DNA of 64,000 bases, taken from NCBI RefSeq assembly GCF_026712205.1, contig NZ_JAPPUW010000003.1, positions 124,001-188,000 on the forward strand, written 5' to 3'. The notes under the pieces were generated by a model. That model saw only the letters and a list, made by a program, of their open reading frames with translations. It did no database searches and was not told where the DNA came from. This document shows positions 43,176 through 49,723 of the stretch, in pieces. This DNA is from Pelomonas aquatica (GTDB taxonomy: Bacteria > Pseudomonadota > Gammaproteobacteria > Burkholderiales > Burkholderiaceae_C). Each line of letters starts with the position of its first letter. Position 1 is the stretch's first letter. The position numbers and the translations under genes are program-made.

Positions 43176-43191
43176 ATGGTCCGCCCCCTTC
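43176..43191 (+). pseudogene. Detached 5' end of the aldo/keto reductase gene
   Basis: ATGGTCCGCCCCCTTC is the first five codons plus one base of the reductase gene, cut off by the transposon. Joined to base 48777, it continues in frame for 21 residues (M-V-R-P-L-P-L-H-A-H, then LIDVGPLVYGC) up to the Met at 48824. No stop occurs at the joint, which shows both the original gene and the insertion point. Confidence 0.88.
43184..43191. repeat. Left copy of 8-bp target-site duplication
   Basis: CCCCCTTC abuts the outer end of the left terminal inverted repeat and is repeated exactly at 48769-48776. An 8-bp duplication is the usual size for IS1595-family transposition. Confidence 0.92.
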
Positions 43192-43217
43192 CGCTATTAG
43201 GTAGCAGGCGCCCCTAG
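43192..43217 (+). repeat. Left terminal inverted repeat
   Basis: It begins CGCTATTAGGTAGCAGGC and ends CCCCTAG; it matches the right end at 48743-48768 with one difference (base 43209 side, GGCGCC versus GACGCC in the same orientation). Confidence 0.9.
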
Positions 43218-43249
43218 AGCGCCTGTGCCCTGGCTCCTAACCTGGAGCC

Positions 43250-44267
43250 ATGACTCAACCGACCGATTCTCTCCCTGGCGTTGAAGCCGACAGCAAGCCA
43301 AGCCGGCAAAAATCTAGCGCGGCCGCAGGCCATCGCATCACTTCATTGATCGGAGAGCTTCGTCAGCGCTCCCGGTATTCGGAAGCAGCGTCCAACGCAC
43401 TGGCCTTCATGGAGCTCGTGGCGACCCACGGCAGCCTGCCCGAATCGCTTCAATCTTTCCGCCAGGCCTTGAATGCCGCGTTGTCACCCCGCCTGGGTGT
43501 GCGGCAACGTGCGGACCGGATCCGCAGCGCCGCGTCGCTGCTGGTTGGCCGCCCAAGGCGTGAAACCTGGGCTGTGGCTGTCGGGCTTCTCTTGCGCGAA
43601 TACGCGGCGAGTCTGGATGCCCGGCCCGAGGAGCGCATGGAACTCATCCAGCTCTACTTCCGCGAGATGGACCAGGCACCGCTGGCCATCAATGCGGCGA
43701 TTCCTCGCCTCGCCGTGCCGCCCAAGCAGTCCGTGCCGACCTTGGACGGGCTGACCGAGCTGATCGACGCCCAAGTTCAGGCCTTGTGCATGAGCGCATT
43801 GCACGAGGCTGCTGACCACGCACCAGTCGGCATCGGCCATCGTCATCCTGGACGAACTCGACAAGGCACACGACCATCAGCGCGATGGTGTCGGCATCCA
43901 GTCCTACCTGCTCGGGCTGGTGGAGCCGGAGACGGCAACGCGGCATCACGATGTCTTCCTGAAGACGGGATGCGACTTCTCCGGAGTTCTGTGGCTGGCA
44001 ACGGCCAACAGGCTGAGCGACATTGCGCCGGCGCTGCGGACGCGCTTTAGGGTGCTGATGCTGCAGCAACCCAGTCCTGACCACCTTGAGGTGATCGCCC
44101 GGAACGCCATCGCCGACGTAGCGGACCGCTGGGGCGTCGAGCGGCAGGTGCTGCCGGACCTGGGAGATCTGGATCTGCCGCTGGATCGGCTGGGCAGCGC
44201 GAGACAAGTGCGGCTGGCGACCGAAGGGGCGATCACGCGGTGGGCGCGAGAGTTACAGCGGCATTGA
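43250..44267 (+). pseudogene. AAA+ ATPase, P-loop region lost and frameshifted
   Basis: An open frame from the ATG at 43250 codes a helical N-terminal domain of about 185 residues (HRITSLIGELRQRSRYSEAA onward). From about 43805 the coding sense moves to another frame: SAIVILDELDKAHDHQRDG is Walker B, then EPETATRHHDVFLKTGCDF, and WLATANRLSDIAPALRTRF contains sensor 1 and an Arg finger. No GxxGxGK(T/S) occurs between the two parts, so the Walker A segment is missing along with the frame. Lon-like AAA proteins have this order. The protein cannot be a working ATPase as it stands. It is transposon cargo. Confidence 0.82.
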
Positions 44268-44363
44268 GAGCGGTCGCGCGATGTCTCGGGATCTCTCAAG
44301 GCGACCAGCGCTTTAAGGAAGCTGGCTATGAAGAAAAGAGGAGCACTTGATGCGTGGGAATAG

Positions 44364-44636
44364 ATGTCCAAATCGAAAAGGCGTGGCTGGCGCAACGCCG
44401 GGCCGATCAGCCGCTTCGAAACCAAGATCAACAAGTGGCGGCATGCACCGCTTCCACCGGGCTTCGAGCCGGTGCGCCTTGGGCAGCGGCTGTACTTTGT
44501 CGGCGAGCCGGGCAGGGTAACGGTACAGGAGTTTCCGAGGGTTTCAGTCAGCGGCCGTCTGTATTCCTGTCAAGTCAGGCGGATGACTTTGACGCTCGCG
44601 CGTTTTTGGCCGAGGACTCGGGGTAGTCAGCAATAG
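44364..44636 (+). CDS. Small basic hypothetical protein
   Basis: A 90-codon frame starts MSKSKRRGWRNAGPISRFE and includes PPGFEPVRLGQRLYFVGEPG, which reads like a compact beta-rich protein. No family is recognised. A second frame over the same bases (44354-44626) is equally long but looks less protein-like. No good ribosome site is seen. It may be cargo of the transposon or chance. The 96 bp before it hold nothing recognisable. Confidence 0.4.
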   Translation: MSKSKRRGWRNAGPISRFETKINKWRHAPLPPGFEPVRLGQRLYFVGEPGRVTVQEFPRVSVSGRLYSCQVRRMTLTLARFWPRTRGSQQ

Positions 44637-44674
44637 TGCGGACGCAGGTCAATTCAACTAGGTGGAGGCCGACC

Positions 44675-45157
44675 CTAAAAACTTCCAATGCGGTTCTTCT
44701 CGACCATCCGTGGATTTGACAGGCGATAACTGCATTCCTTGTCGAAGTGACTTCGAGTGAAGTATCTCCCGCCGGCGAAGGCAATCTTCCAGCCAGTCCA
44801 AGCATCGCGGTCACCTTTGATCTCGAGCGTCCCCACGTTGGCGTGGTTGGCAAGCTGGCGCAGTCCGTGCCACAGCGCCCAATCGTTCTCAAAGGTCTGC
44901 CCCAGGTGATTTAGCAGCTTGACCTCCTTCTCGAAGGACATGCCGCTGAAGAGCACCGCGAATTTAAGGCGCGCCCGCGTACCTTGAACGAAGAACTCTG
45001 AATCGGTATAGCTGACGGTCTGCCAGAGCGCGCGTGAAGCCTTTTGCGAGAAGCCCTCGCCGGGATCCAAGTGCTTGACCTCGATGCCGAAGTAGTCGTC
45101 GCGAAAGCCCAGGGCAATCAAATGCTGCTTGGGGTATGCCAAAAAGTCGACCTGATT
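44675..45157 (-). pseudogene. N-terminally truncated PD-(D/E)XK nuclease-like protein
   Basis: The minus-strand frame reads QVDFLAYPKQHLIALGFRDD, YFGIEVKHLDP and later ALWQTVSYTDSEF. VD, then EVK about 20 residues on, then QxxxY, matches the PD-(D/E)XK nuclease core with the RecB-type QxxxY helix. The frame is open upstream into a transposase fragment, but no proper start exists; only a TTG at 45142 lies within the core. I infer that the original N-terminus was lost when the IS1595-type fragment next to it arrived. This stretch is less GC-rich than the chromosome around it. Confidence 0.6.
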
Positions 45158-45322
45158 AGTAATGTGCCTCAGCCCCGCCCCGAATCTCGCTGATGCGATG
45201 CGGCGAACAGCGTGCCGTGTCGACGATCAGCCGTGCGACGAGGCTGCGCAGATCGAAGCGGCGGTTGAAGCGGTAGGCGAAGGCGGCGAGGTAGGTGTCG
45301 GCATGCTGGGCCCAGCCCAGCG
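45156..45322 (-). pseudogene. C-terminal fragment of a second IS1595-type transposase
   Basis: The minus-strand reading ADTYLAAFAYRFNRRFDLRS, then ARCSPHRISEIRGGAEAHY and a stop, matches the end of ISXO2/IS1595-type transposases (YL-x2-F-x-YRFNRR). It is unrelated in sequence to the end of the resident transposase. The IS3 left end cuts it at 45323. Only about 55 codons remain. Confidence 0.7.
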
Positions 45323-46430
45323 TGAACTGGCCCCCGAAAAACGGACGCCACGAGGTCTGCTATTTTTGACCTTGTGGAGGTCTTATGAAGACAGGACCCA
45401 ATCGGAAGTACACGGCCGAGTTTCGGGCCGCGGCGGTGAGCCAGGTGCTCGAGGGTGGACGGTCGATGGCGGCCGTCGCGCGCTCGCTGGAGATGTCGAG
45501 CAAGTCGCTGGCGAACTGGATCTACAAGGCTCGCAGGGGCGAGCCTGCAGTCAAGCGTGAGCCGACACGGCCGGTGTCGGAGCTGGAGGCCGAGGTGAGC
45601 CGGCTGCGGCAAGAGAACGCGAAGCTGAAGATGGAAAAGGAAGTGCTAAAAAAAGCGGCAGCGTACTTTGCGCGCGAGTCGCTGTGAAGTACGCGTGGAT
45701 CGAAGCGAACCGGTCCCGGTTTCCGACGGTGATGATGTGCGAGTTGCTGTCGGTGTCGCGCAGCGGGCTGGACGCCGCGCGCAAGCGGCTGCCGTCGAAG
45801 CGGGCGATCGATGACGCGATGCTTCTCAATCAAATTCGACAGGCCCAACGGCATCATCGCGGGCGGTATGGCCGGCGGCGGATGACGGCGGAGATCAGCG
45901 CAGCGCGGGGTCGCCCGGTCAATCACAAGCGCATTGCACGCGTGATGCGCGAGCACGGACTGCAAAGCCACAGGCGGCGCGCTTTCCGCGTGGTCACGAC
46001 GGATTCCAAGCACGACCACCCGGTGGCGCCGAACGTGCTCGAGCGCGACTTCAAGGCCACGGCGCCGAACCAGAAGTGGCTGGCCGACATCACCTACGTG
46101 CCCACCGACGAGGGCTGGCTGTATCTGGCGCTGGTGCTCGACCTGTTCGCGCGCGAGCTCGTGGGCTGGGCGATGAGCGAGACGATGCCCCAGGAACTGA
46201 CGCTGTGCGCGCTGGACGTTGCGCTCGGCCTGCGCGATCCGCAAGGGGCGCTCATCCATCACTCCGATCGCGGGTCGCAGTACGCGGCCAAGGACTACCG
46301 GGCCAAGCTCAAGGCAAGGGGCATCCAGGTGTCGATGAGCCGCAAGGGCGACTGCTGGGACAACGCCCCCATGGAGTCCGTCAACGGCACGCTGAAGGTC
46401 GAATGCGTGAACCGCGTGCGGATGACTTCA
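45323..46430 (+). mobile_element. IS3-family element, 3' end missing
   Basis: The left end TGAACTGGCCCCCGAAAAAC has the TG start and A-rich inner part usual for IS3-family inverted repeats. orfA and orfB follow with a frameshift signal. The right part of orfB (after ...ECVNRVRM) and the matching right inverted repeat are not found; unrelated sequence takes over near 46430. The element therefore cannot move on its own and has no visible target duplication. Confidence 0.82.
45385..45687 (+). CDS. IS3-family transposase OrfA (HTH)
   Basis: This is a 100-residue DNA-binding protein with helix-turn-helix KYTAEFRAAAVSQVLEGGRS, SLEMSSKSLANWIYKARRG and a leucine-zipper-like tail LEAEVSRLRQENAKLKMEKE. 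An A7 run at 45648-45654 in frame A-AAA-AAG gives the usual -1 slip that joins OrfA to OrfB as the active transposase. It is complete. Confidence 0.9.
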   Translation: MKTGPNRKYTAEFRAAAVSQVLEGGRSMAAVARSLEMSSKSLANWIYKARRGEPAVKREPTRPVSELEAEVSRLRQENAKLKMEKEVLKKAAAYFARESL

Positions 46431-46475
46431 GCGTCAGTGCGTGGCTTCCGCCCCCGCCGCTCTCCGCCCCCTTGA
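45684..46475 (+). pseudogene. IS3-family transposase OrfB, C-terminally truncated
   Basis: The rve integrase domain is present: HHRGRYGRRRMTAEI, first Asp in WLADITYVPTDEGW, second Asp in IHHSDRGSQYAAKDY and Glu in WDNAPMESVNGTLKVE. After about residue 248 the protein departs from the family and stops, losing the last 30 or so residues, which normally hold YNRxRxHSxLGYxSP. All three catalytic acids remain, but the loss and the missing right end argue against function. Confidence 0.85.
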
Positions 46476-46957
46476 TGGCTGTCTTCGCTGCTCACGCCGC
46501 CGGTGCTCTCCGTGCCGAGCCTGAGGCGGCGGCTGATTCATGAAATTTGAATTTCTTGAATCATAGGCAGCTTTCCAAAAACCACCTTGTACTTTGGGCT
46601 GAAGGGGGACGCGTGCGCCGATTTTTGAGAGGAGCCCGGCGCGCCTCCCCCGAAAACTCGTCAGCCCGATCGGGCTGTGCAACAGCAGTTCAGTACAGGG
46701 GGCCGTCAATGACCTAGCAGCGCAAGCCTGAGGATTTCAGCGCACGCAAAAAGCACGAAGCCAGCAGCCCTTTGCAGAGGGGTGCTGGCTTCACTGGTGT
46801 GCAACCTGCCGGACGGGTAGGCGCAATCAGTATGTGCCACGGACTATGAGCTGTCAAGGCTCAGGGGGCTGCTCATCCTCAGCCGCCCCAGAACCCGGTG
46901 CGCTTCGTAGCGACCTCTCAACCGGTCGCTCCGCATCACTCGCACCAAGGGGTTCGG
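46431..46957. other. Non-coding junction between IS3 remnant and transposase gene
   Basis: This 527-bp stretch has no convincing gene. A minus-strand frame reading SPIGLTSFRGRRAGLLSKIG and QGGFWKAAYDSRNSN might be an old fragment of a protein, but I cannot name it. It also contains one strong hairpin (46757-46792). It presumably holds rearrangement debris plus the transposase promoter. Confidence 0.5.
46746..46792 (-). terminator. Hairpin with T-run on the minus strand
   Basis: GAAGCCAGCAGCCC (46757-46770) pairs with GGGGTGCTGGCTTC (46779-46792) with one mismatch. Read on the minus strand, it is followed within 4 bases by TTTTT (46752-46748). This would stop transcripts coming leftward from the transposase region; no gene for it to end is evident. 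Confidence 0.55.
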
Positions 46958-48088
46958 ATGGCACAGCATTTTCTACTTTCGGCCGAGTGCCGAAACTTCT
47001 CCAGGCGACAACTCGAAAGCCTCAGTGATGAGCAGCACATTGCGCTGCTGGCGCGCTTGCGATGGGGCAGCGAAACCTGCCAAGTCTGCCCAGCATGTGG
47101 CCATATCGCCAAGCACTACTGGCGCACCAACCGTCAGCAGTGGCGCTGCAGAAGTTGTGAGCGCGACTTCAGCGTGACCTCGGGGACTGCGTTCCACGGC
47201 CACAAGCTATCAATCCGGGACATCCTCACCGCCCTCTACACGTTTATCAACAGCGCCAAAAGCGTTTCGGCAACGGAGCTGGCGCGGGAGCTGGGCTGCC
47301 AGTGGAAGACCGCGTGGCTGCTGACGCAGAAGCTGCGGGAGGCCATTCTCAAGAGCAACCGCTACACGCCAGTCGAGGACATTGCGCAGATGGACGGCGG
47401 CTACTTTTGCGGCAAGCGTCGCTCGCCCAACAGGCATGGGCAGCAGCGCGACGAGCGCGCCATCGCCGACAAGATCGAGGCATCGCGTTCTATGCGGAAC
47501 AAGCGTCGGCTCCAACTGTCCGCCGGCGGTCGCGCCAATGCCAAGCGGAAGAAGAAACGACGGTGCGTCTGCGTTCTGCGTGAGGTCTCTCCCACCAGGG
47601 GCGAAGGCGCCCGCCGGACGCTCGTCTACATCGCGCGCAACGAGAATCAGGTAGACATGACCCAGTTCGCCACGTTGTATGCCGCGCAAGGTACCGTCAT
47701 GATGACCGACGAGAGCAGCGCGTTCGCCGAGCTGCCACGATGGTTCGACCATTGCACGGTCGTGCATTCGCAGGAGTGGGTCAAAGCTGACGGTACGAAC
47801 GACAACCAGGCCGAGTCGTACTTCTCCCGCCTGCGCCGAGCAGAGTACGGGGTCTTCCATGGCTTCCGGCCGATGTACCTCATCGACTACGCGAGCGAGT
47901 TTGCCTGGCGGGAAGACAACCGCGGTCGCACCATGCGCGAGCTCTTCGATGAGCTGCTACGCCTAGTGCTCAAGAACGGCCATTCGACCTGGTTCGCCAA
48001 GTACTACCAGGGCAACCGGCGCAGGGAGGAAATCATGGGGCCCGCCGATGGTAGGCGCTTCGCCCGGAAAGTCGCCGTCATGCAATAG
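46958..48088 (+). CDS. IS1595-family transposase (ISXO2-like DDE)
   Basis: This 376-residue transposase has an N-terminal zinc ribbon (CQVCPACGHIAKHYWRTN, WRCRSCERDFSVTSGTAFHG), then an HTH-like linker (SATELARELGCQWKTAW) and the DDE-type catalytic domain. The first Asp is in IAQMDGGYFCGKR, the second in VMMTDESSAF, and NDNQAESYFSRLRRAEYGVFHGF gives the Asn/Glu motif. It appears complete. The ATG at 46958 follows AAGGGG. It is the likely mover of the surrounding 5.6-kb element, whose 8-bp target duplication fits the family. Confidence 0.9.
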   Translation: MAQHFLLSAECRNFSRRQLESLSDEQHIALLARLRWGSETCQVCPACGHIAKHYWRTNRQQWRCRSCERDFSVTSGTAFHGHKLSIRDILTALYTFINSAKSVSATELARELGCQWKTAWLLTQKLREAILKSNRYTPVEDIAQMDGGYFCGKRRSPNRHGQQRDERAIADKIEASRSMRNKRRLQLSAGGRANAKRKKKRRCVCVLREVSPTRGEGARRTLVYIARNENQVDMTQFATLYAAQGTVMMTDESSAFAELPRWFDHCTVVHSQEWVKADGTNDNQAESYFSRLRRAEYGVFHGFRPMYLIDYASEFAWREDNRGRTMRELFDELLRLVLKNGHSTWFAKYYQGNRRREEIMGPADGRRFARKVAVMQ

Positions 48089-48632
48089 GTCGTCCGGTCG
48101 GCCCCTTCGGGTGGCTCACGGGGCCAAACGTGCTTTCCCAAGGGATAGTTGGCGAGCTCGCGGACACCGGGTGACCTGCGGGCTGCCCGGTCGTCGGCCC
48201 CTTTGCGACGCCCGCATCCCGCCAGAGCCCCTCGGTATTGCTGTAAGGGGCGTGCAGCCGTGCGGCCCTGCCTTCTTTGACGAGGACCTTCAGGCGGTGT
48301 CGCACTCGATAGCGGATGTCCGCATACTCCTCTGCGTTGGGATGCAGATCGCAGCTCATGCACACTGCGGAGACGACGGCATACGTCGTCATCGCATGGG
48401 GCCGTGCTTGCGCCAGGGCGGCCAGAATGGCCCTGGTCATGGTTCCATGTTCAGTCAGGCGGGGAGAAAGCTGTACCCGTGTCGAGCCGAGCTTGGTGGT
48501 GTCGATCAGGATTTCGTGCAACCCGATCGTCTGGTCCAGGGCGGCGAGATCCCGCTGCAGCGCAGCGATCTCCGCGTCGTGTTGCTGCTGAAGCTTCTCA
48601 TGCGCCGCTTGGCGTTGCTCGCGGCGTTTCAT
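48078..48632 (-). CDS. Transposon-borne coiled-coil protein
   Basis: The 184-residue protein begins MKRREQRQAAHEKLQQQHDA with about 35 residues of heptad-like helix. A compact domain follows: GTMTRAILAALAQARPHAMT, VRHRLKVLVKEGRAARLHAP, similar in rhythm to a winged helix. The tail is Pro/Ser/Gly-rich. A GTG six bases upstream is another start. It converges on the transposase, overlapping its end by 11 bp, and lies against the right terminal repeat. It may help or regulate transposition; that is inference from place and shape only. Confidence 0.6.
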   Translation of the reverse strand: MKRREQRQAAHEKLQQQHDAEIAALQRDLAALDQTIGLHEILIDTTKLGSTRVQLSPRLTEHGTMTRAILAALAQARPHAMTTYAVVSAVCMSCDLHPNAEEYADIRYRVRHRLKVLVKEGRAARLHAPYSNTEGLWRDAGVAKGPTTGQPAGHPVSASSPTIPWESTFGPVSHPKGPTGRPIA

Positions 48633-48742
48633 GGCCACGTTGAGAAGTCCGGCGACGGCGCGGCGGCGTTTGACGAGCCAGGCCAGAGAGGGGGGATGCG
48701 TGAAGACATGGGACGAAGGGTATGGAGCCCTTCGCCCATCAT

Positions 48743-48768
48743 CTAGGGGCGTCTGCTACCTAATAGCG
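48743..48768 (-). repeat. Right terminal inverted repeat
   Basis: CTAGGGGCGTCTGCTACC... ends TAATAGCG and is the inverted copy of 43192-43217 with one mismatch. Confidence 0.9.
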
Positions 48769-48776
48769 CCCCCTTC
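48769..48776. repeat. Right copy of 8-bp target-site duplication
   Basis: CCCCCTTC directly follows the right terminal repeat and equals 43184-43191. Confidence 0.92.
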
Positions 48777-48823
48777 CCCTCCACGCCCACCTCATCGACG
48801 TCGGCCCCCTCGTCTACGGCTGC

Positions 48824-49723
48824 ATGGCCCTGGGCGGCGACTGGGGCGACAGCCCCATCTCCGAGGCCGACATCGCCCAGGCCCACGCGGCCGTCGAGGC
48901 GGCGCTGGACATCGGCATCAAGCTCTTCGACCACGCCGACATCTACCGCCGCGGCAAGGCCGAGGCCGTGTTCGGCGAACTGCTCAAGCGCGACGCCGGC
49001 CTGCGCGGCCGGATCAGGCTGCAGAGCAAATGCGGCATCCGCTTCGCCGATGACGCCAACGTGGGTCGTTATGACCTCAGCGCCACCCACATCGAACGCA
49101 GCGTCGACGGCATCCTGAAGCGCCTCTCGGTCGAACGCCTCGACATCCTGCTGCTGCACCGCCCCGACGCGCTGATGGAGCCCGCCGAGATCGCTCACGC
49201 CTTCGGCCGGCTGAAGGCCGCGGGCAAGGTGGGCCATCTGGGTGTGTCCAATATGCATGCCGGCCAGATGCGCTGGCTGCAGACGGCCTTGAACGAACCC
49301 CTGGTCGTGAACCAGCTGGAGCTGAGCCTGGCCAAGCTGGACGCCATCGACGTCGGCACCACCTTCAACGACCCGCAGGCCGCCACGCGCCCCGGCGGCA
49401 TCGCCTGGGCCGGCACGCTGGAATATGCGCAGCAGCACGGCGTGCAGCTGCAGGCCTGGGGCGCGCTGGCGCAGGGCCGCTTCAACGACCCGGCCGCGTC
49501 GGCCGCGGCCCAGGCCGTGCACGAGATCGCCGAGGCCCACCGCACGACGGCCAACGCCGTGCTGCTGGCCTGGCTGCTGAGGCATCCGGCGGGCATCCAG
49601 CCGGTCATCGGCAGCGGCAATGCGGAGCGGATTCGCGCCTGCGGCGATGCGGTGAGGATTCAGCTGAGCCGGGACGAGTGGTATCGGCTGTATGTGGCGG
49701 CGCGGGGGCAGGCCTTGCCGTGA
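48824..49723 (+). pseudogene. Aldo/keto reductase, 5' end displaced by transposon
   Basis: This is an NAD(P)H-dependent aldo/keto reductase resembling YdhF. From the Met at 48824 it has 299 residues with the full catalytic tetrad: Asp and Tyr in DHADIYRRGKAE, Lys in LQSKCGIRF, His in LLLHRPDAL. The cofactor loop IGSGNAERIR is also intact. The first 21 codons, including the natural start at 43176, are separated by the 5.6-kb transposon. An in-frame stop in the right terminal repeat (TAG at 48764) blocks read-in. Translation from 48824 would lack the first beta strand, so the gene is probably inactive or poorly expressed. Confidence 0.88.

Follow-up and report, generated by a model that had tools for sequence, protein, structure and literature searches.

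An IS1595-family transposable element of 5577 bp lies at positions 43192-48768 of a 64,000-nucleotide stretch of the Pelomonas aquatica genome (contig NZ_JAPPUW010000003.1, positions 124,001 to 188,000; this whole stretch is called the window below), where it breaks an aldo/keto reductase gene at codon 6. In itself this recent insertion of a transposon is ordinary in kind. The element belongs to a family whose chassis consists of a transposase and a convergent coiled-coil/winged-helix gene, with a cargo slot between the left end and the transposase. In many members, by annotation, the slot is occupied by an anti-phage defence system, and restriction-modification is the commonest kind. We regard this explanation as a whole, the insertion splitting the reductase together with the two-gene family and its often defensive cargo slot, as highly probable. 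No earlier description of this family with its defence-rich cargo slot was found in the literature searched. The features on which the reading of the insertion rests are as follows.

43192..48768, strand + (set by its transposase): whole transposable element, from its ends, its duplication and the empty sites in relatives
43184..43191, no strand: target duplication, left copy, 8 bp, CCCCCTTC, a sequence repeat
48769..48776, no strand: target duplication, right copy, 8 bp, CCCCCTTC, a sequence repeat
43192..43218, strand +: left inverted repeat, 27 bp, 26/27 against the right repeat
48742..48768, strand -: right inverted repeat, 27 bp, 26/27 against the left repeat
46958..48088, strand +: IS1595-family transposase (PF12762, PF12760, NF033547); the open reading frame (ORF) opens at GTG 46898, and the start ATG 46958 was chosen by alignment of the relatives
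48078..48638, strand -: accessory gene, 186 amino acids (aa), with a long N-terminal helix and a winged-helix domain by predicted fold, convergent with the transposase gene; homologues at related loci
43176..43191, strand +: 5′ end of the reductase gene, from ATG up to base 1 of codon 6, by the joined-flank reading
48777..49723, strand +: remainder of the reductase gene, first remaining ATG at 48824; PF00248; 14 of the 19 further genomes of the genus have orthologues

The terminal inverted repeats agree at 26 of 27 positions, which is equivalent to the 25/26 over 26 bp given by the original prediction. The exact duplication that it placed around 43192-48768 is present as well: it is 8 bp long, and CCCCCTTC occurs exactly twice. 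When the flanks were rejoined by script, they gave MVRPLPLHAHLIDVGPLVYGC followed by the reductase body, that is, 21 residues with zero stops, reproducing the in-frame N-terminus said to be restored by removing the element and one duplication copy. The further statement goes too far in taking the reading frame as independent proof of the boundaries. Because frames agree by chance about one time in three, the absence of stops across the join is weak support by itself, and the boundaries rest on the relatives and the duplication. At the occupied site the frame leading into the reductase body has two stops within the right inverted repeat, and therefore no fusion protein is expected. The window lies within a contig of 279,919 bp, so the insertion is no junction between contigs. 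A search with the element's first 69 bases matched its own genome at two places only, the left end itself and, over 27 bases, the right end. Within the window the true pair of ends scores 41 vs 32 for the best unrelated pair. Taken together with the end search across 80 related loci and its shifted controls (see below), these scores indicate that the ends are better than chance. Element anatomy and relatives with the whole gene show transposition: an IS1595-family DDE transposase, acting on two 27-bp ends, moved the 5.6-kb element into codon 6, leaving the 8-bp duplication.

The transposase contains a DDE domain (PF12762, 6.5e-27; NF033547, 5.1e-34, score 118 against a cut-off of 75) and an N-terminal zinc ribbon (PF12760, 3.3e-9). 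Passages of PMC8101967 describe such a zinc ribbon in the IS1595 family, except in the IS1016 group. With the DDE domain, the zinc ribbon, the 8-bp duplication and the terminal inverted repeats, the element has the characters of this family, with whose ISfinder entries the original prediction had proposed to compare its ends. In an order-level sample of 399 genomes, the transposase has a match (at or below 1e-40) in 10, including its own genome. The nine others are 33-44% identical to it, some across half the length only. The 186-aa protein (1e-8) was found in 5 of the 399 genomes, again including its own, and the other four fall among the nine transposase carriers. Used as a single query against the genome contigs, the transposase gave zero matches. 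An alignment of seven transposases (A1) was needed, which yielded 460 relatives in the contigs, and the best 80 of them form the survey set. These 80 loci are therefore the closest relatives, not a random sample; their gene calls are simple ORFs, and two of them (L069 and L075) are contigs that also supplied seeds. A sequence search for relatives of solved structure gave none that was convincing for the accessory protein and the transposase (best E 0.0052 and 0.014).

A homologue of the accessory protein was found in 62 of the 80 loci (profile from five proteins, E<=1), with E<0.001 and at least 120 residues in 57 of the 62. In 59 of the 62 the best match is on the opposite strand downstream of the transposase, and in 53 its distance from the transposase match is at most about 640 bp. 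The transposase and the convergent coiled-coil/winged-helix gene are a conserved two-gene arrangement; neither this second gene nor the cargo-bearing character of the element figured in the original prediction. The homologue was not detected in 18 of the 80 loci, many of them from Pasteurellaceae. The AlphaFold2 model of the protein (mean pLDDT 81) has a helix at residues 2-40 and a winged-helix arrangement at 66-141. Foldseek gave zero matches to this model at E<=0.001; many of the first 50 matches are winged-helix proteins, and chains of MukBEF, FOXO, MarR, Fur and RosR are among the top ones, none of them at E<=0.001. The protein would probably bind the ends or the transposase promoter, assisting or regulating transposition. 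Plasmids rarely carry the family: one transposase matches 9 of 72,556 plasmid records at 1e-60. Two plasmid copies were examined. One, in Skermanella rosea, is 1691 bp long, with ends of 19/20 and an exact duplication, and lies between two coding sequences annotated as DUF2254. The copy in Rhodovastum atsumiense has a length of 1594 bp, ends of 13/20 and an exact duplication. Both hold the transposase and a convergent hypothetical gene.

The ends can be recognised across the family. A motif-free search that required an exact 8-bp duplication and ends matching at 17/20 or better succeeded in 13 of the 80 loci; among ten controls with a shifted right flank, the same strict search gave 0/80 in nine and 1/80 in one. 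A loose motif-free search was not used, since its 24/80 loci vs 13/80 in the shifted-flank control were hardly better. Without the duplication requirement, ends of at least 17/20 occur in 35 of the 80 loci, some surely by chance. A motif-guided search paired ends in 21 of the 80 loci and in the window. Two of these, L059 and L123, were excluded before counting for weak ends (10/20 and 8/20) and a duplication of 7/8, and 19 complete elements were counted. They span 1665 to 8600 bp and share one end motif, the gene order and exact 8-bp duplications. The family end consensus is CG(C/G/A)(T/A/C)ATTATGTAGCA; the window ends read CGCTATT, and many relatives have CGGAATT or CGGTATT. The right-end motif (at least 11 of 12 positions, no more than 2.1 kb after the transposase) is present in 46 of the 70 loci that are long enough vs 0/70 in the wrong orientation. 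For the six order-level relatives (L039-L044), no pairing of ends with a duplication was possible.

In the complete elements the cargo is located between the left end and the transposase. Twelve of the 19 have a recognised defence system (11 restriction-modification, 1 IetAS); the remaining seven comprise one candidate defence system, two interbacterial-toxin-like cargoes and four that are neither.

L071: type III restriction, both subunits
L125: type III restriction, ResIII
L128: type III restriction, by identity with L125
L061: type II, methylase and restriction enzyme
L072: type II, methylase and HindVP enzyme
L107: type II, BsuBI/PstI enzyme and methylase
L080, L105: type IIG or similar
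L096: type IIG or similar, N6 methylase and specificity protein
L115: type IIG or similar, N6 methylase; also AbiEii
L104: C-terminal part of an EcoRI-type methylase, GmrSD/HNH protein and candidate PDC-M19A
L057: IetA and IetS
L074: candidate PDC-M36A
L052: zeta-toxin protein with XVIPCD region
L111: PAAR protein beside amidase
L126: no cargo ORF
L073: inverse autotransporter domain; neither defence nor toxin-like
L050, L101: neither defence nor toxin-like (pooled ORF scan only)

One pair of loci documents movement. L125 (1916-8509) and L128 (1981-8509) contain the same 6.5-kb type III restriction element in two Acinetobacter species, with different duplications. The copies are 99.95% identical over 4358 bp and 100% over 2186 bp, and the flanks do not match at 1e-5. 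Taking the two as one gives a defence tally of 11 of 18. One copy is about 65 bp longer than the other. Other cargoes show further peculiarities. In L115 a second ORF in the cargo (1302-2369) starts like a related transposase (MAQHFLLS...), and the match of the element's own transposase has 2 stops; this is possibly one element inside another. The PAAR protein, the amidase and the small next ORF of L111 (4597-6121) resemble an effector of type VI secretion together with its immunity gene. L061 (6311-6883) and L071 (6310-6951) have near-identical ORFs beside the transposase, LexA/S24-type repressor-like by eye, a possible cargo regulator. Finally, at L040 (9963-13367, genome G384) homologues of IetA and IetS are located near a related transposase; ends were not found there, and the locus was excluded from the count.

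The defence genes might instead be a by-product, of insertion into defence islands or of random passengers, without any dedicated slot. Cargo and flanks were compared for this question with PADLOC models at a cut-off of 1e-10 (67 cargo ORFs, best 25 of 161 families; 142 flank ORFs of the same elements, best 25 of 100). Among the matches listed, single restriction models match 3-4 of the 67 cargo ORFs vs no more than one each of the 142 flank ORFs. A further 27 loci were chosen by the right-end motif together with 5 kb on both sides. Their 47 cargo-side ORFs (best 25 of 30 families) include N6_Mtase 9 times, Eco57I 8, N6_N4_Mtase 4, ResIII 3 and Methylase_S 2, with SAVED, DUF4007, RE_XamI and C5 methylase once each and some non-defence families, HlyD and MerR among them. 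Among the matches listed for the 72 ORFs beyond the right end (best 25 of 95) there are four LysR-type regulators and no restriction families. Moreover, in the complete elements the defence genes sit between ends with exact 8-bp duplications, and the element of L125 and L128 moved as a single unit.

Several observations weigh against the dedicated slot or the family reading as a whole. The flanks are not free of defence-like matches (mad2 and mad3 2 each; type III methylase, REase_I, LmuB, PDC-S02 and PDC-S15 1 each, among the best 25 of 100 families), and L050, L073, L101 and L126, 4 of the 19 complete elements, have no defence or toxin-like genes. The window's own cargo is unrecognised, with zero PADLOC matches, so that the defence cargo belongs to the relatives. 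No complete end pair was accepted in 61 of the 80 loci, and the relatives' transposases are only 34-47% identical to the query set; the 80 loci, moreover, are the closest relatives. On balance we consider a by-product improbable. A dedicated slot appears the better account. There is also a broader proposal, towards which we lean with moderate confidence: ISNha5-like IS1595 transposons may serve, widely among proteobacteria, as vehicles that each carry one defence system. A minimal mobile unit of about 1.6 kb, the transposase with its convergent coiled-coil/winged-helix partner, would swap complete modules (restriction-modification, IetAS or interbacterial-toxin) in a single slot beside its left end, spreading them one by one outside large islands.

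The split gene bears on the age of the insertion. The remaining reductase body matches Aldo_ket_red (PF00248, 5.6e-48) over residues 2-288, and FDHADIY, QSKCG and LLHRPD are visible by eye in the translation, where they may represent the Asp-Tyr-Lys-His catalytic tetrad. Orthologues of the body, 80-92% identical, are present in 14 of the 19 other genomes of the genus; the other five have distant superfamily members only. The original prediction was to be refuted by relatives lacking the 21-residue N-terminus, and it was not. A homologous N-terminus, ending in PLVYGC or PLIYGC, was found in all 14 orthologues, with 21 residues in 11 and 19 or 20 in three (assuming that the displayed ATG is the start). 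One orthologue, L011, has a TGA within the matched stretch, and its available sequence is short. Upstream of the reductase, no more than about 150 bp away, 11 of the 14 relatives have a Sel1 gene, and 12 have a GNAT gene downstream. Both neighbours and the whole reductase occur together in 10 of the 14, which therefore present the empty site that had been proposed for inspection.

The window copy retains 299 codons with zero stops. The mean ratio of nonsynonymous to synonymous substitution rates (dN/dS) is 0.20 in the 13 pairs that include it vs 0.22 in the 78 other pairs (L011 excluded). Counting private changes at sites where at least 80% of the others agree gives 2 for the window and 3 for its nearest relative. 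Because there is no stop and dN/dS is ordinary, the insertion is, judged from these codons, recent on the scale of the genus. The claim of a recent inactivation of the reductase is thus borne out as to its recency; inactivation cannot be stated as a fact, because an ORF of 299 aa from ATG 48824 persists. Loss of function is likely. In the aldo/keto reductase fold the N-terminal part comprises a hairpin and the beginning of the first strand of the barrel, and through its loss the reductase would probably be non-functional. Conceivably, a shorter protein from ATG 48824 is still active, expressed from outside or from the element. The open codons, a dN/dS like that of whole orthologues and the tetrad residues present by eye are consistent with such activity, but a recent insertion accounts equally well for dN/dS, the N-terminal part is kept in all 14 relatives, and a consensus scan detected no outward sigma-70-like promoter at 48400-48900, around the right end of the element. 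We consider continued activity quite unlikely.

The cargo of the window's element, between its left end and the transposase gene, consists of remnants.

43250..44267, strand +: decayed AAA ATPase cargo gene; PF00004 on the C-terminal part, N-terminal homologue in genome G283
44675..45142, strand -: 155-aa ORF, cargo remnant, with a single plasmid homologue, 32% identical
45385..46475, strand +: truncated IS3-family element, OrfA 45385-45687 and OrfB 45684-46475 without its C-terminus (NF033516 positions 90-336 of 369 for OrfB)

Read by eye, the N-terminal and C-terminal parts of the AAA ATPase are in different frames, and the middle is absent in comparison with a 605-aa homologue. The possibility that this broken gene is a known defence gene found no support: neither its C-terminal part nor the 605-aa homologue has a PADLOC match at 1e-10. 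At L129 (4601-9656), in the same family of bacteria, the 605-aa AAA homologue is located near a 570-aa ORF that is TniQ-like by eye. The 155-aa ORF has zero matches in Pfam, NCBIfam and PADLOC. A 61-residue fragment on the minus strand (45162-45344) looked like the C-terminus of another IS1595 transposase; it has no Pfam match, and we do not claim the likeness. The cargo is decayed and the split reductase is not, so the window copy probably moved with its cargo already decaying. The truncated IS3 element and the decayed genes could also suggest that the 5.6-kb unit was assembled from separate insertions and that its outer ends agree by coincidence, but ends of 26/27, an exact 8-bp duplication, relatives without the insert, and 19 other elements with this end motif and gene order make this extremely improbable.

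Among known systems, the ISNha5 subgroup of the IS1595 family, reportedly treated by Siguier, Gagnevin and Chandler in 2009, appears closest. Elements of this subgroup are 3450-7900 bp long, carry passenger genes and have ends CGGnnTT. The likeness lies in the IS1595-type DDE domain with zinc ribbon, the 8-bp duplication and the long elements with passengers. The window's element, 5577 bp with cargo remnants within, has a length inside this range, beyond which its relatives extend (1665-8600 bp). The subgroup end CGGnnTT is close to the family consensus, and CGCTATT of the window differs from CGGnnTT at one position. By form the element appears to resemble the ISNha5 subgroup. Passages of PMC11891212 include transcription regulators among ISNha5 passengers, whereas here the slot often holds restriction-modification or other defence genes and the convergent winged-helix gene is conserved. 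The cargo of L057 matches the PADLOC models of IetA and IetS; IetAS is one cargo type of several, not the transposon. Tn7-like transposons have several transposition proteins and targeted sites. They and other defence-carrying mobile elements are alike in having a cargo region that holds defence systems, but the element here has one transposase with a small accessory protein and an insertion in a reductase gene. The bcpAIOB transposon of B. thailandensis, according to PMC6350997, is a 210-kb composite with IS2-like ends that bears interbacterial conflict genes. It is alike in such genes and different in build, the present family consisting of single-transposase unit elements of 1.6-8.6 kb. Defence or restriction-modification cargo of ISNha5 or the IS1595 family was not found described in the literature searched, which was mostly non-subscription and without bioRxiv, nor in passages of PMC3942029, PMC11891212, PMC8101967, PMC10667641, PMC3339403, PMC12561309 and PMC11736806.

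It is a standing question by what route solitary restriction-modification systems pass between distant bacteria. In this respect the element is of greater interest than its insertion in the reductase gene, which is ordinary. Such movement would have a direct and testable route in a small transposon family whose ends can be recognised and whose defence slot is exchangeable. Moreover, the end motif would allow cargo of unknown function to be delimited simply, as new defence candidates.

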